This document shows, in pieces, positions 17,069 through 30,559 of a DNA stretch of 38,555 nt (the first letter of the stretch is position 1; each line of letters opens with the position of its first letter). The DNA is from Bdellovibrio sp. (GTDB lineage Bacteria > Myxococcota > SpSt-1050): positions 1-38,555 of the forward strand of contig DYEF01000100.1 of the NCBI GenBank assembly GCA_020725805.1, given 5' to 3'. Below the pieces are notes generated by a model. That model had not been told where the DNA came from. It made no database searches and worked only from the letters and a program-made list of their open reading frames with translations. The translations under genes and the position numbers were made by a program.

Positions 17069-17464
17069 TTACTTTGCCTTTGCAGGAGCAGCCTTGAACT
17101 TCGGCTTCTTTTCCTCTGCAGGGGCTGCCGGCTTCTTCTCTTCTTTCTTCTCTTCCTTCTTTGCAGCCTCTTTCTTTTCAGGAGCCTTTGCGTCCTTCTT
17201 TGCCTCTTCCTTCTTCTCTTCTTTCTTCGGGCATGCTTCCATGTCCTTCTTGAGCTGCTCGTTCTCGGCCTTTAATGCATTGAGCTGATTGTTGAGGTCA
17301 TCTCTTGCCTTGGTGAGCTCAGCCTCTTTTGCCTTGAGACCATCTCTCTCCTGAGTAAGAGAGCTTACCTGCTCATTCAGCTTCTTGATCTCTTCCTGAT
17401 TGCAGCCTACAAAGAAAATGCCCATCAGGAAAACTACTACTGCTAATAATACTACTTTCTTCAT
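17069..17464 (-). CDS. Small coiled-coil lipoprotein with Lys/Glu/Ala-rich tail
   Basis: The 131-residue precursor has a lipoprotein signal peptide (MKKVVLLAVVVFLMGIFFVGC); the lipobox FVGC places the acylated cysteine at residue 21. Residues 24-77 form an Lpp-like coiled coil of Leu/Lys/Glu heptads. The rest is a Lys/Glu/Ala/Pro repeat (KKEE, PAAP, APAKAK), probably extended and basic. No Asp follows the cysteine, so sorting to the outer membrane is likely by E. coli-type rules. Strong signals suggest abundance: promoter TTGACA-17-TATGAA, AAGGAGGTG ribosome-binding site and a strong terminator. The basic tail could tether the envelope to peptidoglycan or another anionic polymer, but that is inference. 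Confidence 0.85.
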   Translation of the reverse strand: MKKVVLLAVVVFLMGIFFVGCNQEEIKKLNEQVSSLTQERDGLKAKEAELTKARDDLNNQLNALKAENEQLKKDMEACPKKEEKKEEAKKDAKAPEKKEAAKKEEKKEEKKPAAPAEEKKPKFKAAPAKAK

Positions 17465-17802: not shown

Positions 17803-20800
17803 ATGGCAAAGAAGAATAAAAACAGAAAAAAGAACGAATTAAGGGAAGAAACCGGAAAGATTCAGGAAAATCTGGTGCAGGGCAACGGTGATAGTCCGGT
17901 ACAGGGACAGCCGGAGAAGGACTCTGCAATGAAGGGCAGAACAGGTATCTTCGAAGAGGAGAGAGTCAAGAAGTATCTTCTTGAGAACAGATACAACGAG
18001 GCGGCAGACTATCTCCTGCAGTCTCTTTTGCTTGCAGAGGAGAAGGGTGAGATTCAGTCAGTTTTGCGCCATATAATTGATATAGGGACACGTTTTGAGC
18101 TGAGGGACCCGAACATTCTTCTTCTCGCAATTAATTTGCTTGAATCTTCCGGCGGAATTGATGTAAGTCTGGTCGGAGTATTAAAGGATTATTTCGAAAA
18201 GAGGAGACGTTCGGGGAGGCTCAGGAACCTGATTATCGGTTATGCCATTGCATCGAATGATGTAAAGGAACTTCTGGACTTCGCAGACAGGACGTCAAAG
18301 AGCAGTAAACTTGAGGCACTCGAATATTACATACTTTGCGGTCAGAGGTTTGGCAATGTTATGGCCTATGAGAAGGCCGAGACGATAGCACTGGAATTTT
18401 CCCTTTTTGAGACATTATTCAGGATAATTCAGAGTGAGGAAGCGCTTTTTGAGGACAAACAGCTCTATTCCAACAAGCTGAAGGATTTTCTTACACGGAC
18501 GGCCGAACTTCCTCTGTATCTCGATCTTAACAAGCAGGTACTCGAAAAACTCATTGCATATAAACCTGATTCCAGAAGTGTCAAGAACTTCCAGAATGTA
18601 CTCTCGGAAATCGAGAATAATCCTCAGGGAGCACTTGCCAATCTGAGGGCACTGGCGGTGGAGCAGAAGGAGAGGGCGGCATCTGCAAGGATTTATCTGA
18701 ACATTGCCTATCTGTTGATGAACTATTTTGGCGAGAGCCATATTAACGAGATCGAAGATGCGCTTACAAGGGCAATCTCGCTTAATCCCGTTTCATATCC
18801 CGGGCTAAAACTTGTCAATGAATTCTGTCAGAGATTCAGGAAAATGAGTTTTGCTGAATTTGTTAACAGGGAAATCCTGAATCTGAAGATAGTATCATCG
18901 AAGATAGACTTTCTTCTTATTGCAACCCTGTTTATGAATAATTCTGTTCAGGATATAGAACAGACTGCGGACCTGCTGAAAAGTATCCAGAATGAAAATC
19001 CGGATATGATGTTTCTGAACGGATTTCTGGGTGAAATGTATATAGAAAAGAACGATTATGCTCAGGCCATAAAACTCTTCAACAGATGTGTTTCGGTTAT
19101 AAAAAATGATGAACAGAAGGCAAGGTACTGGGAGCTTCTGGGAAGACTCTGTGAATCTTCTGATAATTTCGAGGATGCATATCTCTATTTTATTGAGGCA
19201 ATCAAGGTCTGCGGGCCCGAGCCTTCCGTTCTTAAATCAGTCATTAATGTCGCGCAGAAGGCAAATGTATTATCCGAGACTGCAGATATATTCTTTTACA
19301 GCAGCTTCTTTGCCGAGGACGACAGTGAAAAGGCAGAACTCCTTCTTAAGTCCACTGAACTCTATCTTGCAAAAGGTAATGTTCAGAATGCCCTGAGGTC
19401 CTTTAATGTCTATGTCAGACTTGACCCCTCAAGCAGGATGATTATCAGTTTTATAGATGATTTTCTGGCAAAGGGTCTTTTGGCACAGACCATAATCGAA
19501 TCTGTGGCTCCGGTCGCAGAGAAGGCTCTTGGCGAAACAGATGACAAATATTCGCTTATTCCCCTTTTGAAAAAAATCGCCTCACTCTACCACAAAAATA
19601 TCAATGATATCGAAGGTGCTGTCAGATTCTATAAGACCATTCTGTCTGTTGATTCGGAGGACATCGAGACTGTCAGGATTCTGTCGTCTATAGCAATGGC
19701 CACTCAGGCGATTGATGATATTGAGGCGGCGATAAAGAAGGAGATAGACCTTTCTAACAGACTCTCCGACAGGGTTGCGGCGATGAAAAAGCTTGCCCAG
19801 ATAAAGGAGGAGAGACGGCAGGATTTCAGTTCTTCGGCAGAGATATACAGGGAGATTCTTTCTATAGACCCGACTGATGAGTTTGCCAGAAACAAACTGA
19901 AGACTCTCTACAGAAGAATGAGAAAGAGGGATGAATTTGTGGCTCTTGTCAGAGAGGAGATAAATTCGGCATCACACACAAACGAGAAAAACCGGAAGAG
20001 AATCGAGCTCGCCGAAGTACTTCTGACGGATATGGATAATCCGGAAGATGCATTTTCGTTTATTATGGACGTTTACAAATCGGATGAAACAAACGAAGAT
20101 ATTTACAGACTCCTTTCGGTCTTTGCGGACAGGGGACTACTCTACGAAAAGATATCTTCGCTGTACAAGCCGTATCTGATTCAGAAAGGGGATTACCAGA
20201 CCTTTATCAAACTGGTTGAGGCCGAGCTGAAGACCGAGACTGATTTGCAAAAAAGGATTGCGGCTCTGAGGGAACTTGCTGATATCTATGAAAAGAGACT
20301 GAATCATAAGGACCTTGCATTTAATACCAGAATCAGGATTTTCAGGGAGAGGCCATCGGATAAGGAGAATATTCAGATGCTCACCAGAATGGCCGAGGAG
20401 GTAAGGGGCGAGGAGGAACTTGCACGTCTGTTTGTCGAGGTGGGTTCCCAGAAGGATTGTGCAGAGGATATAAGACTGACATTACTCAGGTATTCCGCCG
20501 ACATATATGAGAAGAAGCTCAACGATATAAACGGGCTGAAGACGACGTTGAGTATTATGAGCAGTTATGTCTCGGGTGATATCGAAATACTCAGCCGTCT
20601 GATAAATCTGGCACAGGAGACCTCTGACTATTCCGCCCTTGCGGAATCTTTCTATAAGAGAGCGATGCTTCAGACAGAGAAGAACGAAAAGATAAAAGAC
20701 CTGATGGAATCTGCAAGGATATACGAGATAGAACTCAAGGATGACACAAAGGCGATATCCGCATTGGGTCAGATACTTGAGGCAGATTCATACAATCTTC

Positions 20801-23800
20801 AGATACTGAAAAGACTCGAGAGACTGCTTGAAAAGACTATGATGTGGGAGAATCTTGCCGATGTACTCAGACAGGAACTCCGTATTATTTCGGAACCGCT
20901 TGACCGTTCACAGGTCTTCGTGAAACTGGGAGATATTTATCTCGAGAAACTGGAGAGGGATGCCGAGGCACTGGAGGCTTACAAAGAGGCGTTCAAAACG
21001 AACATAGTATCGGAGGCAGTTCTGATTAAACTGCTGGGCTTTATGAACGAGTCGGCCGATTATATGCCCGTATTCCGTTTTATCGAAGAGACTTATATAA
21101 ATAGTAACGAATGGGGTCTTCTGGCCAATTTCTATGTGAGGTCTGTGGCGATAATCAAAGACAGGGAACACAAAAAGGAGATATACTTCAAGCTTGCCGA
21201 TATCTACAAAGACCGCCTTAATCAGACCGATATTCTGTATTCGACTCTCTGCAAGGCACTGAGGGAACTGCCCGAGTACGACGATATAGCACAGAGGCTC
21301 GAGGAAGTGGCACTTGAACTGAATCTCTTTGAGGAGACGATTGAATTCTTCGATGAGATTACTGAGGACGAAAGGATAGATGCATCTGTCAGGGCATCTC
21401 TGTATGCCAGGGCGGCAAGACTTTCAAAGACGGCACTGAATAATATCAACAGGGCGCTCGAATATGCCAGAAAGGCAAATAATCTTGTTCCGGACAAACC
21501 GGAATATATAAGCCTTCTCGAAGAGTATCAGAAGGAGGCGGGGCAGTATTCGGACCTTGTAAATCTGTATGAGCAGAAGATAAGACTGGCGAAGGATGAG
21601 AGCGAAAAGAAGAAGATATATTTCGAAATGGCATCCGTGATTGAGAAGAATCTCGAAGATGTCAAGGGTGCAGCAGATGTCCTGCTTGAGCTTTTCAGAA
21701 AGGACCCGTCTGACAGGGAGGTCTTTGACAGGATTGTGGACCTTGCCTTAAGAGGAGAGCAGTACAGTATTCTTTCGAGAGTCTATGAAAAGAGGATTGA
21801 GTTTGCGGAGAACGAAGAGGTCCAGAGGGAACTGAGACTGAAGCTTGCAGAAATCAAGAAGGATAAGCTTGCAGATTATGACGGAGCCACCCAGATTATC
21901 GAATCTGTTCTGGCTGCTGACCCCGGATGCAGCAGGGCAGTGGTTCTGCTCGACGGTATACTGGAGAGTTCACCGGACAAACTCAGACCCGGCAAGCTGC
22001 TCCTTGGTGTGCTCAGGCAGAGCGGTCAGAAGGCAGCAATGGTCAGGGTTCTGGAGGTGCTTGCCTCCTGTGTGGAAAATCCTCAGGAGAAAATCGGGTA
22101 TCTCGTGGAGGCGGCAGAGATATCACAGGAATCCGGTGACAGACAGAGGGCTTTTGAATTCTATCTGAGGGCATTCAGTATCGATTATGAAAACATTCAC
22201 TTGCTCAAGAAACTTACGGAAATAGCCGATTCATCCGATTTGTGGGAGCAGATCGCCATGGTCTGTGAAGATGCTCTTTCGCAGATGCTCACCGAAGAGA
22301 CTATGAAGTTTATCAAGAAGCAGCTTGCTGATATCAGGCAGAAGTATCTCGCAGACCCTGATGGTGCATTTGTCCTCTATAAGGAACTTGCACTCGAGGA
22401 TATGTCCGAAATGGATATGGTTGAGATACTTTCTGCGCTCGAATCCCGCTACAGGGAGACGGACGATAAAGAGGGGCTTCTGGGAGTGCTCAGAAGGAGA
22501 CTGAAGTATATCGAGGATGCAAAGGATAAGACAACGATACTGATCGAGATTGCGGAAATTCAGATAGACCATATGAACAGGCTCGATACCGGTTTCGAGA
22601 CACTGAAGCAGATAGTCGAGATATCTCCGGATAACGAATTTGCACTCAAGAAGATATCTGAGATCGCTAGTGGTCTCGGAAGGTGGCAGGAGCTTCTGGA
22701 CGCCCTTACAAGACTGCTGCAGATCGTCAGGGATGAGTCCGAACTTTCCGAATACAAATTCGAACTCGGGCTTATTTATGAAGAGCGTATGAATGATATC
22801 AAGACCGCTTTTAATCTCTACAGGGAGTCATTTGCCCACAACAGGGGAAATACAGTGCTCTTAAGACACCTTAATGAGCTCTTCGAGAAGGGCAAATATA
22901 TTCAGGATGTGGTTCCGCTTCTTGCTGAAATATATCTGAGTAACGACAATTTCGAGGAGGCTGTTGCCGTTTATGAAAAGGCCTCGAAGATGAATGTCGA
23001 AAAAGGTGTCAGATATGAATATATGCACCGTGTTGCCGAGATATACAGGAAGAGGATGGAACAGCCCGAGATGGCATTTCTGGCGGTTGTAAAGCTGCTG
23101 AGGGAATTTCCGGAGCAGACTGAGATTCTTTCCGAGCTCGAGGATATCGCAAGGGAGATTGGTTCATTCGAGGAGGTTGTCGCAACACTCGAGGAGATAT
23201 ATATCTCGGTCAAGTCAAAAACGATCAGGAACGAATATGCACTGAGACTCGGCAAGATCTATGAGGAAGAGATAAAGGACCAGGAACAGGCAATGATGTA
23301 CTTCGAGGAGGTATTTGCGAATAATCCTCAGGATGAGGCCGCACTCGTCTCGCTCGACAGGATTTACCGTCTGAAGGGTGAGTGGGAGAAGCTGACGTCT
23401 GTTATCGAGGAGGAAATAAAGATCAGCAGGGAGGAGGACGAGAAGATAAACCTGATATTCAGGCTTGCCAAGATTCTCGAGGAGAAACTTCAGGATGCAA
23501 AGGGAGCAATAATTTCATACAACCGTATCCTTGAACTCAAACCTGACCACAGACTGGCAGTAAGGTCTCTGGAGAAACTTTATGAGAGTCTGAAGGACTT
23601 CGGTAATCTCAAGAAGATACTCGAAAAAGAGCTGGAACTTGCAACGGAAGACGAGGAAAAACTCAGGATAAAGACCCGTATTGCCGCAGTACTCGGCTCC
23701 AAAATCGGTGAGTCAGATAAGTCCATAGAGATTTTCAGGGAGGTGTTTGAGGCAGACAGCTCCAACGATGAGGCATTTGAAGCCCTTGAAAAACATTATC

Positions 23801-26800
23801 TAGAAAATGCCGCGTATAATGAACTTGTTACGCTGTACCGAAGATATATCGAAGCGATAGTTGACAAGACAAAGTCTATCCCTTTCAGAATCAGGCTTGC
23901 TGATATAATGATTCACAATACATCTGATTATGACGGTGCAAAGCTGGTGCTGAACGAGGCGCTTGCAATCGACCCTCAAAATACAAGGCTCCTGCTTTTG
24001 CTAAGGGAGGTATATCGGCTGACCGGTGAATTTGTCGAGGAGGCAACTGTTCTTAAAAAACTCATCCCCCTGCAGGAAGATACAGAGAAACTGAAGGAAT
24101 ACAGGCTTGAGCTGATGGAACTTCTGGGAGAGAAACTTGGCAGAAGGGAAGAGGCCATTGAGATTTCCAAGAGGGTACTTGATATTGAACCGCATACCCT
24201 TGAAGAACTTAAGAGGATTGCAGCAGTTCTCAGAACACTATTTGCATATGAAGAACTTATCTCTGTCCTTGAAATTATGGTCGATATGGTTGAGGGAGAT
24301 GAAAAGTTTGAAATCTTAAGGGAAATGGGTTCTGTATATCTTGAAAATCTGAATGACGAGCGTCAGGCCCTGATACATTATGAAAAGGCCTTCGATATTG
24401 CGAGTTCGGATACTGAGGTCTTCGAAAAACTTATACAGCTTTTAAGGAGTTCAAATAAGATTACAAAACTCCCGCCCGTTTATGAGAAGAGGATTCAGTC
24501 TGAGACAGACAGCAAAAAGAGGAAAGACCTTCTGAAGTCTCTGGCTGAGATATACGAGAGTGAAACGGATGATACAGAGATGGCATTCCTTACGTGGTGC
24601 AGGGTACTCAAGGAGGATTATTCGGACAGGGATGTGCTGACCAAGGTCGAGACGCTTGCTGAAAAGACCGAACTGTATGAGGAATTATATGCTATCTATG
24701 AAAATGCAATCGACGAGGTTACGGATAACGAACTGCTTGAATACCTGAAGAGACGTCAGGCCGAACTTTCAATCAGCAAACTCGGCGAAAAGGACGAGGC
24801 AGAGAGACATTATAAGGAAATCATAGAACTCAATCCGAATAATCTGGATGCTTATCACAAACTGCAGGAATTGTACGAAAAGGATGAGAGGTTTATTGAC
24901 CTGATTGACCTTATCGACAAAGAGATTCAGGTGACAGGGGAGACAGAGAGGAAGATTGAACTCTATATAAGAATTGCGGATATCTACCACAAAAATATCG
25001 GTAATCCTGATGAGGCATCGGCGATACTCAAAAAGGCTCTTGTTATCGACGGTACCAATAAGAGACTTCTGAACAAAATGATGGAGTTCTATCAGGAAAC
25101 CGGGAGATACGAAGACCTTGTGCAGAGCATAAGGAGATTGATAGATAATTCGGAATCCCATGAGCAGGCTGATTTATATCTAAGACTTGGTGAGGTATAT
25201 GAAAACAGACTGAAACAGGATGAACGGGCGATCGAGGCGTATCTCTCCATCCTTGATATTGACCCGCAGAATTTAAAGGGGATGAAGGCTCTCGAGAATA
25301 TATATCAGCGTCTCAATATGCACGAGGAACTGGTAGGAATTTATGAGAGTGAGATACCTGTACTTTCAGAGCCTTCCGAGATCGTGGATATCCATTTCAA
25401 GGCCGGAGGGGTCTATGAGGATATCCTCTCTGACTGCAAGAAGGCTATAGAGCACTATAATGCGGTTCTGGATATTGACCAGACCGATATGAATGCCGTG
25501 AAAAGCCTCGAGCGGTGTTATCAGGCAGAACAGAATTACGAATTTCTGGTTGATACCTACAAGAAGCATCTTGAACTGACCGATGACCCTGATGAAAAGA
25601 TCGAGATTCTTCTGAAGATGGCATCTGTCTGCAGGGATGAACTTAAGAGGGCTGATTTTGCAGAGACATATTATTCTCAGGTCCTTAAATATGACCCCAA
25701 CAACAGAGAGGCAATTCACAATCTTGCAGAACTCTACGAAAAGAGCGGTAACTGGTTCAACGCAGTTGAGATGCTGCGACGTGAGGCCGACGGTCTGGGC
25801 CAGACAAATGAGGCCGTACAGATATTCTTCAGACTGGGGAAGATCCACGAGGAGATGCTTCTGGACCTTGAATCCGCAAAGGAGTCATACAGAAGGGCTA
25901 TAGAGATTGACCCGTCATTCATCGATGCAGTAAGGGCATTGAGAGGTATATACGGTTCCGAAAAGAATCTGACGCAGTATCTGGATATAATGAAGCACGA
26001 GGCTCAGTATATCAGTGACCCGGAGGAAAAGAAGAGGCTCTTTTTTGAAATCGGAAAGATCTATGAGGAAGAGAAGAACGATATTGAACAGGCAAAGTTC
26101 TATTACGAAGAGGCATTGAAGATCGATTTCGGTTACGTCGCCGTTGCAAAGATACTTGCAGATATCTATTTCAGGGAGGAAAACTGGCAGAGGGCTGAAT
26201 CCTGTCTTGAGGTTGTCGTAAAGGATATGGAGAAGTCGGGTGACAGGAAAGAGGTGGCAAGACAGTATTACAGACTCGGGTATATAGCCGAAAAACTCAA
26301 TGATATCCAGAAGGCAATCAAGAGCTATCAGGCAGCTTATGACCTTGACCCTTCGTATCTGCCGGTTATGGAGAGCCTTGCAGCAGGTTATACTCAGCTC
26401 GAGATGTGGGAAAAGGCGTCGGCCATATATCAGAATATGATTGTCAAACAGAAGGATGTCCTCTCCGATGCCGAGATGGTCGATATATATTATCAGATCG
26501 GAGACATCGAAAAGAGGCTCGGGAATCTTGAGAAGGCATTGAGTTTCTTAAGGAAGGGATACGAGATAGACGACAGGCATACTAAGATTCTCTCCCTTCT
26601 GAAAGATATCTATTCGGAGAGGGCAGAGTGGGATGACGTCTATGATATGTATCTGCAGCTGATAAGTGTTGTTCCCGAACAGGAACGTTTCGATATGTAT
26701 ATGGAACTGGGGTCGATATGTACCGATAAACTCAGCGATGTGTTCAGGGCTATAGATTCCTATTCGGGTGCAATAAGGAGTGCCAAATCTCCCGAGCAGA

Positions 26801-28311
26801 AGCAGAGTGCGATGGAGAAGATATATCCCCTGTATATAGATGCCAGACAGCCGCAGAAGGCAGTGACAATACTTAAGGAGCTTTCTCAGGTAGATAAAGA
26901 TAAGGATAAGCAGAAGCAGTATTTCCTCAAACTCGCCGAACTCAACCGCAAATCACTCTCCAATCAGGATGAGGCCCTTGCCTATTACAATAAGGTTCTG
27001 GACATTGACCCCAATTATACACAGGCCTTTGCCGAGATAGAAAAGATACTCGCTGACAGACGCGACTGGAAGGGACTGGAAGAGGCCTACCGTACGATGA
27101 TACAGAGAACACCCAAGGAACAGAAGGCGAGAAGACTCATTCTCTGGAAGACGCTGGCAGACCTCTATTACAGGGCGCTGAGAAATCCGGAGGCGGCAAT
27201 AATGGCCTATGAGGTGGTTTCGGGGCTCGACAAGGATAATGCAGAGGTGCTGGATATGCTGGCAGAGCTCTATTCCTCGAAGGAAAAATACAGGGAAAAG
27301 GCGATTAAGACATATCATCAGCTTATAAAAGTTACTACAAATCCTGTAAAGGTATGCAAGGCACTGAAAAGACTCTATATAGCAACCAAACAGTATGACC
27401 GTGTCTATATCATCTGCAATGTGCTCAAATTCCTCAAACAGGCTGATGCCGAGGATGAAAGGATTATCTCGCAGCTGAGGACGAAACTAAAGGATGTGTC
27501 AGCAAGGTCATTGACGGAAAACCTGTGGGAGAGCGCCATTCTGCACGAACAGGCAAAAGGTGTAATCTCCGCAATCTTCGCCGCGGTTCTCAAAAAATAT
27601 CCCGAATTGTTCTTTATGCCGCCCGAGGCTTTCGGGCTCAAAAAGACCGACTACATTGATATCAACACGTCACAGCTCTTTGCTGCCTCCATGCTGAGGT
27701 ATGTAAAGGGAGTTCTCAATGTACAGGCCCTTCAGGCATACAAGGGGCAGATGGGTTCGAGCGGGATAAGACTGATTCCGACAAATCCTCCGGCGCTGGT
27801 ACTTGGTGAGGATATGTTCAGGGAGAGGTCAAAGAAGGAAATCTGGCTGCTTATGGCAAAGGAACTTACATTTATCAGACCCGAATTTTTTATCCTTGCA
27901 GGTAAACCACAGGAACACCTTGATGCCATACTCAATGCGGTCCTTGCCGTTGTTCAGCCTTCGGCTCTTATGGACGGAAATCCGGTCCTCAATCAGGAAT
28001 ATGCGAGATTGTTTGCTCCCAAGATGACACCGGATACACTTATGCTCTTCAAGGCCCTTGCCTCCAGATTCTACAGTGAAAAGGTAAGACCGAGGATGGA
28101 GGACTTCAAGGAGGGGGCGGAACTCTCCTCGATAAGGGCGGGTGTTGCCATAACACAGGACTTTGAATTTGCACTTTCCATGATTCAGAAGATTCCGTTC
28201 AGGCTTTACAGGATTCCGCCGAGAACGCTTCTGAGGGAAATCGTAATCTATTATATGTCCGAGGAGTATATGGACCTCAGGGAGAAACTGGGATTGAGTG
28301 TGTCGGTATGA
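17803..28311 (+). CDS. gltI: Giant TPR protein, GltI/AgmK-like
   Basis: The 3502-residue product has no signal peptide or membrane segment and should be cytoplasmic. After a basic, disordered start (about residues 1-50) it is almost wholly helical TPR-like hairpins. From about residue 560 to 3200 a unit of roughly 72-73 residues (two TPRs) recurs about 40 times by eye, marked by motifs like IYEEKLND..AI and L.IDP.N..A. Residues from about 3237 to the end form a distinct, non-TPR C-terminal domain. Giant TPR proteins with this tail are known to me from myxobacteria. The next gene is a GltJ/AgmX-like protein, matching the gltI-gltJ adjacency of M. xanthus, where GltI belongs to the Glt gliding machine. 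Naming rests on size, architecture and neighbour, so it is moderately secure. Role here: probably a cytoplasmic scaffold. Confidence 0.7.
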   Translation: MAKKNKNRKKNELREETGKIQENLVQGNGDSPVQGQPEKDSAMKGRTGIFEEERVKKYLLENRYNEAADYLLQSLLLAEEKGEIQSVLRHIIDIGTRFELRDPNILLLAINLLESSGGIDVSLVGVLKDYFEKRRRSGRLRNLIIGYAIASNDVKELLDFADRTSKSSKLEALEYYILCGQRFGNVMAYEKAETIALEFSLFETLFRIIQSEEALFEDKQLYSNKLKDFLTRTAELPLYLDLNKQVLEKLIAYKPDSRSVKNFQNVLSEIENNPQGALANLRALAVEQKERAASARIYLNIAYLLMNYFGESHINEIEDALTRAISLNPVSYPGLKLVNEFCQRFRKMSFAEFVNREILNLKIVSSKIDFLLIATLFMNNSVQDIEQTADLLKSIQNENPDMMFLNGFLGEMYIEKNDYAQAIKLFNRCVSVIKNDEQKARYWELLGRLCESSDNFEDAYLYFIEAIKVCGPEPSVLKSVINVAQKANVLSETADIFFYSSFFAEDDSEKAELLLKSTELYLAKGNVQNALRSFNVYVRLDPSSRMIISFIDDFLAKGLLAQTIIESVAPVAEKALGETDDKYSLIPLLKKIASLYHKNINDIEGAVRFYKTILSVDSEDIETVRILSSIAMATQAIDDIEAAIKKEIDLSNRLSDRVAAMKKLAQIKEERRQDFSSSAEIYREILSIDPTDEFARNKLKTLYRRMRKRDEFVALVREEINSASHTNEKNRKRIELAEVLLTDMDNPEDAFSFIMDVYKSDETNEDIYRLLSVFADRGLLYEKISSLYKPYLIQKGDYQTFIKLVEAELKTETDLQKRIAALRELADIYEKRLNHKDLAFNTRIRIFRERPSDKENIQMLTRMAEEVRGEEELARLFVEVGSQKDCAEDIRLTLLRYSADIYEKKLNDINGLKTTLSIMSSYVSGDIEILSRLINLAQETSDYSALAESFYKRAMLQTEKNEKIKDLMESARIYEIELKDDTKAISALGQILEADSYNLQILKRLERLLEKTMMWENLADVLRQELRIISEPLDRSQVFVKLGDIYLEKLERDAEALEAYKEAFKTNIVSEAVLIKLLGFMNESADYMPVFRFIEETYINSNEWGLLANFYVRSVAIIKDREHKKEIYFKLADIYKDRLNQTDILYSTLCKALRELPEYDDIAQRLEEVALELNLFEETIEFFDEITEDERIDASVRASLYARAARLSKTALNNINRALEYARKANNLVPDKPEYISLLEEYQKEAGQYSDLVNLYEQKIRLAKDESEKKKIYFEMASVIEKNLEDVKGAADVLLELFRKDPSDREVFDRIVDLALRGEQYSILSRVYEKRIEFAENEEVQRELRLKLAEIKKDKLADYDGATQIIESVLAADPGCSRAVVLLDGILESSPDKLRPGKLLLGVLRQSGQKAAMVRVLEVLASCVENPQEKIGYLVEAAEISQESGDRQRAFEFYLRAFSIDYENIHLLKKLTEIADSSDLWEQIAMVCEDALSQMLTEETMKFIKKQLADIRQKYLADPDGAFVLYKELALEDMSEMDMVEILSALESRYRETDDKEGLLGVLRRRLKYIEDAKDKTTILIEIAEIQIDHMNRLDTGFETLKQIVEISPDNEFALKKISEIASGLGRWQELLDALTRLLQIVRDESELSEYKFELGLIYEERMNDIKTAFNLYRESFAHNRGNTVLLRHLNELFEKGKYIQDVVPLLAEIYLSNDNFEEAVAVYEKASKMNVEKGVRYEYMHRVAEIYRKRMEQPEMAFLAVVKLLREFPEQTEILSELEDIAREIGSFEEVVATLEEIYISVKSKTIRNEYALRLGKIYEEEIKDQEQAMMYFEEVFANNPQDEAALVSLDRIYRLKGEWEKLTSVIEEEIKISREEDEKINLIFRLAKILEEKLQDAKGAIISYNRILELKPDHRLAVRSLEKLYESLKDFGNLKKILEKELELATEDEEKLRIKTRIAAVLGSKIGESDKSIEIFREVFEADSSNDEAFEALEKHYLENAAYNELVTLYRRYIEAIVDKTKSIPFRIRLADIMIHNTSDYDGAKLVLNEALAIDPQNTRLLLLLREVYRLTGEFVEEATVLKKLIPLQEDTEKLKEYRLELMELLGEKLGRREEAIEISKRVLDIEPHTLEELKRIAAVLRTLFAYEELISVLEIMVDMVEGDEKFEILREMGSVYLENLNDERQALIHYEKAFDIASSDTEVFEKLIQLLRSSNKITKLPPVYEKRIQSETDSKKRKDLLKSLAEIYESETDDTEMAFLTWCRVLKEDYSDRDVLTKVETLAEKTELYEELYAIYENAIDEVTDNELLEYLKRRQAELSISKLGEKDEAERHYKEIIELNPNNLDAYHKLQELYEKDERFIDLIDLIDKEIQVTGETERKIELYIRIADIYHKNIGNPDEASAILKKALVIDGTNKRLLNKMMEFYQETGRYEDLVQSIRRLIDNSESHEQADLYLRLGEVYENRLKQDERAIEAYLSILDIDPQNLKGMKALENIYQRLNMHEELVGIYESEIPVLSEPSEIVDIHFKAGGVYEDILSDCKKAIEHYNAVLDIDQTDMNAVKSLERCYQAEQNYEFLVDTYKKHLELTDDPDEKIEILLKMASVCRDELKRADFAETYYSQVLKYDPNNREAIHNLAELYEKSGNWFNAVEMLRREADGLGQTNEAVQIFFRLGKIHEEMLLDLESAKESYRRAIEIDPSFIDAVRALRGIYGSEKNLTQYLDIMKHEAQYISDPEEKKRLFFEIGKIYEEEKNDIEQAKFYYEEALKIDFGYVAVAKILADIYFREENWQRAESCLEVVVKDMEKSGDRKEVARQYYRLGYIAEKLNDIQKAIKSYQAAYDLDPSYLPVMESLAAGYTQLEMWEKASAIYQNMIVKQKDVLSDAEMVDIYYQIGDIEKRLGNLEKALSFLRKGYEIDDRHTKILSLLKDIYSERAEWDDVYDMYLQLISVVPEQERFDMYMELGSICTDKLSDVFRAIDSYSGAIRSAKSPEQKQSAMEKIYPLYIDARQPQKAVTILKELSQVDKDKDKQKQYFLKLAELNRKSLSNQDEALAYYNKVLDIDPNYTQAFAEIEKILADRRDWKGLEEAYRTMIQRTPKEQKARRLILWKTLADLYYRALRNPEAAIMAYEVVSGLDKDNAEVLDMLAELYSSKEKYREKAIKTYHQLIKVTTNPVKVCKALKRLYIATKQYDRVYIICNVLKFLKQADAEDERIISQLRTKLKDVSARSLTENLWESAILHEQAKGVISAIFAAVLKKYPELFFMPPEAFGLKKTDYIDINTSQLFAASMLRYVKGVLNVQALQAYKGQMGSSGIRLIPTNPPALVLGEDMFRERSKKEIWLLMAKELTFIRPEFFILAGKPQEHLDAILNAVLAVVQPSALMDGNPVLNQEYARLFAPKMTPDTLMLFKALASRFYSEKVRPRMEDFKEGAELSSIRAGVAITQDFEFALSMIQKIPFRLYRIPPRTLLREIVIYYMSEEYMDLREKLGLSVSV

Positions 28312-28329
28312 TGCTGATGTGCAAAAAAT

Positions 28330-28358
28330 TTGATTTATCATTTCAATATTGGTATATA
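28330..28358 (+). promoter_or_regulatory. Candidate promoter of the gltJ-like gene
   Basis: TTGATT (28330-28335), a 17-bp spacer and TATATA (28353-28358) lie in the 67-bp gap before the gltJ-like gene. An AGGAG site at 28367-28371 then precedes the ATG. The gene may be transcribed both from here and by read-through from the TPR gene. Confidence 0.4.
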
Positions 28359-28378
28359 ACTAAGCCAGGAGTTATTAT

Positions 28379-30559
28379 ATGATTTTTACCTGTAACAATT
28401 GCAATGCACAGTATAAAATCAGTGATGACAGGATTCCTGCCAAAGGGGCTAAGGTAAAATGCAAGAAGTGCGGAAATATCATTACTGTAAAACCGCCCGA
28501 AGACGATTCGTCAGGTCAGGAGGCTTTTCAGAATGAGGCAACCGTTGTTCAGAGGTCTCCTTTTGCGGAAGATGGTGAATCTCCGGTAGACTCCACCCGT
28601 GTGGTATCACAGGAGCAGGCCGCAGGAATCTTCAAGAGCCTTATAAATGAGCACTCCCAGACTGTATCACAGGAAGAGAGCGGGTATAGTCCGGAAGAGA
28701 GTCAGCAGGAAAGTTCCGCTGCTGAATCGGAATCATCGGCAGCCTATCAGGATTATTCCTCGGAGAGTCAGGAATCGGCAGACGACAGACTGACATCTGT
28801 ATATGAGAGCAGTAGTCAGTCAGAGGATGCCGGTACCGGAGATGATGTTGAACAGAGGGTAAATGAAATGTTTCAGGATACACCGGAGGAGGAGGATATC
28901 AGCAGGGAAGCGACAAGAGTCGTATCGACTGATCAGCTTAAACAGATGGTCGGGGATGATGATGTCAGGAGCGAAGAGCCGCGTACCGATAGTTCTGTCC
29001 AGAACTACTATGCACAGGCAGCGCAGCCTTATGTGGCACCAAAGTCGAGGGGTGAGTGGTATGTGGCCATTGGTCAGATGCAGGTTGGCCCTCTTTCGAT
29101 GAATGAAGTCGAGGAGAAATGGGGTCGCGGAGAGATAAATTCCACGACTCTTGTATGGAAAGCGGGAATGGCAGGATGGCAGCCGCTTATGTATGTCCCG
29201 GAACTATCCCATCTGGTTCCGCCCGCACAGGAGAGCAGGGTGGAAGAGCAGCCGGCGGTAAGGGAATTCAGACCCGAGCCCAGACAGGAGCAGCCTCAGG
29301 AGACTCAGCCGTCATCCGAATCTTCGGCATTCCCGTCGCTTGATGAGCTTACAAAACAGGAAGAGGAACTGAAATCCCGGAAGGAGGAAGAGGCTCCGCT
29401 TGACTGGAAACCGGCAGCCGGCGAGGCGCTCGCATCACTTGTTCAGGATGAGATGGAATCTATGCAGAGAGGGTTTTCAACAGATATTCCCATTACATCA
29501 AAGCAGGATTCCGGTATCAGTATTTCTCCGCCTTCTGAATCACCGGTATTACCGTTCGATAAACCTCAGGAACCAATAGCCCCTTCACCGGTTATACCGC
29601 AGACGGTATCGACTCCGCCGGTAGCAGTGGAACAGCCCGTAATTATTAACACACCTGCCTATCAGTCTCCATACCCGCAGGCTTATCCCAACATTTATTC
29701 ACAGCCGCCCCAGAAGGCCGAGAAGAGCAGGTTTGTGCCGATTCTGGTTGCAGTTCTTGGAGCGGTTCTGGTTATCGGTGCGGTTCTGGGTTATGTATTG
29801 TATACTAAACTCTCGGGAGAAAAGGTTAATCCGAATAATCAGGCTGTTCAGCAGCAACCGCAACCGCAACAGCAACAGCCTCAGCAACAACCTCAGCAGC
29901 AGCCCGTACAGCAGGTACAGCAGCAGGAACCTCCCAAAAAGGAAGAACCTGTAAAACAGGAGGAGCCCAAGAAAGAGGAGCAGGCAAAGACAGAAGAACT
30001 GAAAAAGGAGAGTACAGAGCCCAAGAAAGAGGTCCAGAAGCAGAAGGTTGCAATGAAGGAAGAAAAACAGGAGAAACAGACCTCTAAGAAGGTTGTCAAA
30101 AAAGAGGAAGAAGAGATGCCTCCGCCTCCGCCCAAGGAGGAGAAGAAGCCCAAGAAAGAAGAGGTTGCAGCCAAGGAAGAGGAACCACCGCCAAAGAAGA
30201 AATCAAAAGGGGCTGACCCGCTTCTTGATTTTGAAGGGGACCAGGGCTCCAAGGGCAGTTCCGGCGGATTACCCAAGACCCTTACTCAGGAGCAGATTCT
30301 CGAGGTTGTTAAGGCAAATATCGGAAGAATAAAGACCTGTATGGCGGAGCAGGCTCAGAGAGATGCATCTGTCAAGGGCAAACTTATTATAGGGTGGGAG
30401 ATTCAGCCCAACGGCAAGACCAAGAATGTTCAGATAAAGACCCCGCAGTTTAAGGGGACATACATAGGGACCTGCATTTCATCTGTGGTGACGGATTTTT
30501 CGTTCCCGAAATTTGCCGGGCCTCCGATTCCGATCGAGTTCCCGTTCAATATAAAGTAG
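28379..30559 (+). CDS. gltJ: GltJ/AgmX-like zinc-ribbon, GYF, TonB-like protein
   Basis: The 726-residue product has this order: an MJ0042-type zinc ribbon (residues 1-38; C5, C8, C28, C31); an acidic Ser/Glu/Gln-rich linker with two TRVVS motifs (near 72 and 178); a GYF_2-like domain (about 226-277, EWYVAIGQMQVGPLSMNEVE, then VWKAGMAGWQPL); a Pro-rich linker; one membrane segment (about 452-478); a Gln/Pro then Lys/Glu/Pro-rich TonB-like stretch (about 483-630); and an AgmX/PglI-type C-terminal domain (about 635-726) with C654 and C699. This is the architecture of M. xanthus GltJ (AgmX), in which the cytoplasmic zinc ribbon and GYF part interact with motility regulators and the periplasmic part reaches the envelope complex. 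The neighbouring giant TPR gene supports it. Other AgmX-tailed proteins exist, so the exact orthology is inferred. Confidence 0.8.
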   Translation: MIFTCNNCNAQYKISDDRIPAKGAKVKCKKCGNIITVKPPEDDSSGQEAFQNEATVVQRSPFAEDGESPVDSTRVVSQEQAAGIFKSLINEHSQTVSQEESGYSPEESQQESSAAESESSAAYQDYSSESQESADDRLTSVYESSSQSEDAGTGDDVEQRVNEMFQDTPEEEDISREATRVVSTDQLKQMVGDDDVRSEEPRTDSSVQNYYAQAAQPYVAPKSRGEWYVAIGQMQVGPLSMNEVEEKWGRGEINSTTLVWKAGMAGWQPLMYVPELSHLVPPAQESRVEEQPAVREFRPEPRQEQPQETQPSSESSAFPSLDELTKQEEELKSRKEEEAPLDWKPAAGEALASLVQDEMESMQRGFSTDIPITSKQDSGISISPPSESPVLPFDKPQEPIAPSPVIPQTVSTPPVAVEQPVIINTPAYQSPYPQAYPNIYSQPPQKAEKSRFVPILVAVLGAVLVIGAVLGYVLYTKLSGEKVNPNNQAVQQQPQPQQQQPQQQPQQQPVQQVQQQEPPKKEEPVKQEEPKKEEQAKTEELKKESTEPKKEVQKQKVAMKEEKQEKQTSKKVVKKEEEEMPPPPPKEEKKPKKEEVAAKEEEPPPKKKSKGADPLLDFEGDQGSKGSSGGLPKTLTQEQILEVVKANIGRIKTCMAEQAQRDASVKGKLIIGWEIQPNGKTKNVQIKTPQFKGTYIGTCISSVVTDFSFPKFAGPPIPIEFPFNIK

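Follow-up and report, generated by a model that had tools for sequence, protein, structure and literature searches.

The gltI-gltJ locus

The window analysed here is a stretch of 38,555 nucleotides from Bdellovibrio sp. (phylum Myxococcota; assembly GCA_020725805.1, contig DYEF01000100.1), and corresponds to contig 97 of a 3.29-Mb genome that is 98% complete. It contains two adjacent open reading frames (ORFs) on the + strand, separated by 67 bases, which are the orthologues of GltI/AgmK and GltJ/AgmX of Myxococcus xanthus. In that organism the two proteins (MXAN_4863 and MXAN_4862, respectively) belong to the Agl-Glt gliding machine and are encoded in its G1 cluster (PMC3169522). The two genes and their parts are listed below by window position, with the supporting evidence in brackets.

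17803..28311, + strand: gltI/agmK orthologue encoding a cytoplasmic tetratricopeptide repeat (TPR) protein of 3502 amino acids (aa), ATG start (full-length blastp alignment to relatives; blastp to M. xanthus GltI)
18895..26682, + strand: TPR array of GltI, approximate extent (Pfam TPR models)
28379..30559, + strand: gltJ/agmX orthologue encoding a bitopic inner-membrane protein of 726 aa, ATG start (domain models, phmmer, alignment to M. xanthus GltJ)
28379..28492, + strand: MJ0042-type zinc ribbon of GltJ, CxxC...CxxC (Zn_ribbon_4; 39 aa aligned at 64% identity with M. xanthus GltJ)
29057..29206, + strand: GYF_2 domain of GltJ (Pfam; phmmer to 7z3c)
29405..29461, + strand: cytoplasmic W-K-P-x-A-x-x-x-LASLV motif of GltJ, between GYF domain and transmembrane helix (kept in 53 GltJ proteins)
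29741..29809, + strand: transmembrane helix of GltJ (hydropathy)
29810..30283, + strand: periplasmic Gln/Pro/Lys/Glu-rich, TolA/TonB-like linker of GltJ (sequence; weak TolA match)
30284..30553, + strand: AgmX/PglI (TonB-C-like) C-terminal domain of GltJ (NF033768; 42% identity to M. xanthus GltJ)

An earlier note on this stretch had described a 3502-residue cytoplasmic TPR protein followed by a protein with zinc ribbon, GYF domain, membrane segment, TonB-like part and AgmX tail, and both ORFs were confirmed with Pfam, NCBIfam and hydropathy analysis. The hidden Markov model search that it proposed gave matches for the TPR, GYF_2, zinc ribbon and AgmX/PglI domains alike. GltI was matched by 17 TPR-type Pfam models over most of its length, with E values down to 5e-54. 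It has no N-terminal signal and, with a maximum Kyte-Doolittle mean of 1.5 over 19 residues, is free of hydrophobic segments; its 3502 aa exceed the 3000 aa that mark the giant cytoplasmic TPR protein GltI. GltJ has one strong transmembrane segment at residues ~452-477 (hydropathy mean 2.9) and the domain order zinc ribbon, GYF, transmembrane helix and AgmX/PglI tail, the latter scoring 66 bits against NF033768 (cut-off 40). Among solved structures, phmmer matched both AgmX domains with the window protein (GYF, 7z3c, E 4e-12; zinc ribbon, 7zok, E 5e-11). Alignment of 53 GltJ proteins gave W-K-P-[SA]-A-x-x-x-LASLV as consensus of the motif between GYF domain and membrane. A scan of genome contigs with the window GltJ as the only query produced no match.

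Orthology and conserved adjacency

Residues 578-3502 of the window GltI aligned by blastp to residues 1179-4128 of GltI from M. xanthus AM003 (984 bits), and the two proteins share the same C-terminal domain. Orthology of GltJ follows from its domain order, its position directly downstream of gltI, and its best hits. In strain AM003 the pair (L167) encodes a GltI of 4132 aa and, when read from an early start codon, a GltJ of 699 aa, with a gap of 62 bases. A zinc-ribbon ORF lies directly 3' of gltI in 63 of 80 named loci, AM003 included. Nine of the others end at a contig edge or lack the C-terminus, and eight have no zinc-ribbon ORF within 600 bases as judged by a crude pattern, so that about 71 loci are assessable. 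The same adjacency was seen in the Myxococcota phylum sample. The likeness to the M. xanthus gene order that the earlier note had pointed out thus held: the C-terminal domains are related to those of GltI and GltJ, and the two genes are conserved neighbours across the phylum. The nearest named relatives of the window organism are uncultured metagenome-assembled genomes. As a side observation, a record named 'Comamonas sp. KCTC 72670' (L173; BNCN01000006.1) contains a gltI-gltJ pair of the Myxococcus type that encodes proteins of 4132 and 707 aa; this record is probably a mislabelled or contaminated assembly.

A putative degenerate metallopeptidase domain at the C-terminus of GltI

The C-terminal ~270 aa of GltI matched no Pfam family. 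The features assigned to this region are as follows.

27499..28308, + strand: C-terminal ~270 aa of GltI, predicted degenerate M48-type metallopeptidase fold (AlphaFold model, hhalign, profile matches to active M48 proteins)
27856..27885, + strand: AKELTFIRPE, putative former position of the zinc-binding HExxH helix (aligned with GHELGH in M48 relatives)
28114..28143, + strand: GAELSSIRAG, putatively equivalent to the third-ligand motif E-x-x-A-D-R of M48 peptidases (invariant Glu and Arg)

Two M48 peptidases from other Myxococcota, both intact, were matched by a profile of the domain (E 2e-5 and 3e-5, Z=1000), which aligned GRELAFARPE to GHELGHAALDH and ELTANRAG to ELSADRIG. Comparison with six M48 proteins by hhalign gave a probability of 96% (P 4.8e-9, score 64.8, whereas 30 column-shuffled controls did not exceed 21.1), a biased test in that one of the motifs had served to select the six proteins. 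The register was the same, with P 0.006, when 28 unselected M48 proteins were used. The domain was modelled by AlphaFold (AF2) with a predicted local distance difference test score of 92-93 and a predicted template modelling score of 0.90. A Foldseek search of the PDB counts against the assignment, as it returned nothing below E 0.07; its leading, non-significant matches were the zincins BlaR1, BepA, ZMPSTE24, Ste24 and selecase, which are merely supportive. The M48 claim accordingly rests on sequence profiles.

The domain aligns along the core of peptidase family M48 (PF01435); in its third-ligand motif, Glu and the Arg after it are retained. The HExxH motif was found in none of 34 aligned GltI C-terminal sequences, all of which have lost both its histidines as well as the Asp, so that protease activity is not expected and an active enzyme was ruled out. 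Invariant residues of the head are the equivalents of E3440, R3445 and R3493 of the window protein. The C-terminus of all GltI orthologues examined thus looks like a non-catalytic M48 domain, i.e., a homologue rather than an active member of the family. Throughout Myxococcota this domain may well provide the focal-adhesion complex, in its cytoplasmic part, with a docking head that is subject to regulation. In the literature searched, no paper ties GltI/AgmK to a metallopeptidase fold or describes a fold or function for the domain. GltI, the largest gliding protein, hence gains a testable domain, a putative pseudo-metallopeptidase head.

Contig 61 of the same genome (41889-42782, - strand; L085:6886-12081) encodes a second TPR protein, 1731 aa long, whose C-terminal domain is of the GltI type. 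Large paralogues resembling it are present in most Myxococcota genomes searched.

Other genes of the machine in the same genome

The earlier note regarded the pair as the core of a gliding or envelope machine without the rest. Its statement that no partner gene is near stands for the window, where no other glt or agl gene was found, and fails for the genome: the survey that it proposed for gltG, gltH, aglQRS and mglA uncovered counterparts, and nearly all remaining machine genes lie on other contigs. Contig 16 carries a cluster that comprises an ORF resembling a MIDAS adhesin, a GltA/B-type outer-membrane barrel, GltC (573 bits, cut-off 450), GltD, GltE (170 bits, cut-off 225), GltG and CglE/GltH (99 bits, cut-off 70), i.e., the components expected of an Agl-Glt machine. 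Contig 40 holds a second, Nfs-type gene set. A third cluster, on contig 9, encodes GltG, GltE and GltD together with three ExbB/ExbD/ExbD-like genes in place of aglR-aglQ-aglS; the S subunit is without family match and was assigned by position. MglA was identified with 81% identity to the M. xanthus sequence, and a roadblock-type mglB gene lies upstream of it, which completes the MglA/MglB polarity switch. In a maximum-likelihood tree of GltD, the contig 16 protein fell into the clade of operon-linked Glt clusters (95/96), and that of contig 40 grouped (100/99) with the Nfs-like cluster that is the second one in a genome of Myxococcus size. Machine genes are also split over three unlinked clusters in M. 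xanthus (PMC3169522).

Three further observations concern these gene sets. In several Myxococcota, gltA/B-gltC is immediately preceded by a MIDAS/VWA-like gene of adhesin size, as on contig 16 of the window genome (L080:17969-19990; L039:2-1990) and at loci L184:300-1904 and L089:18107-19843. The product of this gene matches the Bdellovibrio MIDAS adhesin family weakly and possibly corresponds, within the glt operon, to CglB. On contig 34 (440-1348; L042), a secreted ResA/TlpA-like thioredoxin carries a fused TonB-C-like AgmX/PglI tail, so that redox and envelope-motor parts are unusually combined in one protein. On contig 28 (5998-7014, - strand; L043), a 338-aa protein with an AgmX tail, no zinc ribbon and an N-terminus that is GYF-like by eye (no Pfam match) is perhaps a reduced GltJ paralogue.

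Co-occurrence and linkage across Myxococcota

In a sample of 58 Myxococcota genomes, GltI with its specific C-terminal domain was present in 44; one of these (G050) was counted at 162 bits since its 4129-aa frame precedes GltJ. All 44 encode a GltG-family protein. GltC exceeded the equivalog cut-off in 37 genomes, each of them GltI-positive, and in none of the 14 GltI-less genomes. In 21 genomes from eight families, gltG and gltI were located by their coordinates within ~25 kb on one contig, and the order, where read, is A/B-C-D-E-G-H-I-J. This co-occurrence identifies gltI-gltJ as a constant component of the Glt machine, including where the operon has broken up.

In the window genus, unrelated genes follow gltH, and gltI-gltJ is unlinked from the other glt genes in both genus members. 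The window lineage sits between linked families in the GltI tree, so that the separation from gltA-H would probably be secondary; the arrangement is most likely a detached operon end. In the GltD tree, the cluster of the window genome is the first branch of the Glt clade.

Neighbouring genes in the window

The earlier note had the pair flanked by a lipoprotein and exporter genes, and this was borne out. One upstream feature was recorded.

17069..17464, - strand: small coiled-coil lipoprotein rich in Lys and Ala, in divergent orientation upstream of gltI, conserved in the genus

This lipoprotein shares 94% identity over 66 aa with that of the sister species and might be a surface or peptidoglycan-linked partner. 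The pair lies behind a block of ribosomal, rpoA, parA, ABC and lipoprotein genes, a context common to the sister species. The ABC-2/HlyD exporter genes are convergent and located downstream of gltJ.

Evaluation of alternative explanations

In our view, the two genes are probably the gltI-gltJ part of an Agl-Glt gliding machine, the remaining genes of which are located elsewhere in the same genome. The following points weigh against this assignment: (i) GltG of contig 16 (FHA domain and AgmX tail) scores 546 bits, under its equivalog cut-off of 650; (ii) the NCBIfam GltJ model NF033761 gives 275 bits over residues 113-724 of the 726-aa ORF, below a 450-bit equivalog cut-off that is a curated score threshold rather than a biological feature, and we do not apply the strict equivalog label to the window GltJ; (iii) AglR, AglQ and AglS of contig 9 were recognised only as TolQ/TolR-like plus context; (iv) no AglZ, GltF or GltK was noticed among the genes of the clusters read, no dedicated search having been made; (v) the association of GltI with GltC (Fisher p 1e-8; 3e-6 without five tiny genomes) is uncorrected for relatedness among the genomes, which inflates these values; (vi) the unlinked state of gltI-gltJ could also be old, as the GltD tree leaves ancestral linkage open; and (vii) we infer gliding as the output in this organism from its gene content.

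The isolation of the pair in the window and in both genus members, together with the uncertainty about ancestral linkage, is what speaks for the minimal or ancestral module of the earlier note, in which a cytoplasmic scaffold and a transenvelope transmitter would have acted before or without the Glt machine. This proposal did not survive: it is ruled out by gene content, i.e., the Glt, Nfs and AglRQS-type clusters and mglAB of the same genome, and by co-occurrence, as every strongly GltI-positive genome has a GltG-family protein and GltI tracks GltC. Linkage to glt genes in eight other families also contradicts it, and we regard it as highly improbable. Even less credit is due to the idea that the pair belongs to an envelope or exporter function of its window neighbours. 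Apart from adjacency to the lipoprotein and ABC-2/HlyD genes nothing points to it, and the linkage was rejected, the exporter genes being convergent and missing at that place in the sister species, with which only the upstream block from ribosomal genes to lipoprotein is shared. Service to the Nfs-type machine of contig 40 (spore coat or surface-polymer transport), or to both machines, instead of gliding is unlikely, though the best placed of these alternatives, given that such a cluster is present and that the pair is physically tied to neither. This cluster is paralogous to that of the M. xanthus Nfs sporulation machine, whose clusters are devoid of gltI and gltJ (PMC3169522, PMC12288465); moreover, genomes with only Nfs-grade GltC scores (e.g. 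G003, G043, G051 and G052) lack GltI.

Proposed function of the pair

GltI-GltJ is best read as an MglA-responsive assembly scaffold of the Agl-Glt machine in a deep, small-genome lineage of Myxococcota. GltJ is one of the MglA effectors in gliding (PMC12288465, review); like GltG, it is a TolA/TonB-like component of the AglRQS-driven machine (PMC5349195). In the window organism, GltJ would reside in the inner membrane with zinc ribbon and GYF domain facing the cytoplasm, where they would recruit MglA-GTP and adaptor proteins, making GltJ the membrane receptor through which MglA-GTP turns on assembly. GltI would be the cytoplasmic scaffold beside GltJ, a partnership and role that we infer, and its dead M48-like end may act as a peptide-binding or docking head rather than as a protease. 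Through the periplasm, GltJ would extend its linker and TonB-like tail, alongside GltG, to the outer-membrane complex of GltA/B, GltC, CglE and adhesin, with the AglRQS proton motor powering traffic. The organism likely glides, judging by its genes. The near-complete Glt/Nfs/AglRQS/MglAB set is now extended to a deep, uncultured, AT-rich Myxococcota lineage with a genome of 3.3 Mb.

Comparison with known systems

Tol-Pal and TonB-ExbBD motors have a single transmembrane segment, an extended periplasmic linker, a TonB-C-like tail and a TolQR-type motor in common with this system, but no counterpart of the cytoplasmic zinc ribbon-GYF part or of the giant TPR partner. Compared to the G1 pair of M. 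xanthus, window gltI-gltJ is unlinked from gltD-H, its GltI is ~630 aa shorter (3502 versus 4132 aa), with an N-terminal part missing, and its GltJ linker is Gln/Lys/Glu-rich rather than Ala/Pro-rich. Shared with M. xanthus are gene order, orientation, the short gap (62-67 bases) and the TPR giant with the same C-terminal domain, as well as zinc ribbon, GYF domain, WKP motif, transmembrane helix, linker and AgmX tail of GltJ. The locus is a known pair from a known system, of which this genome has a scattered copy, and its remaining interest lies in the reach of that system into a deep lineage and in the pseudo-metallopeptidase end of GltI.

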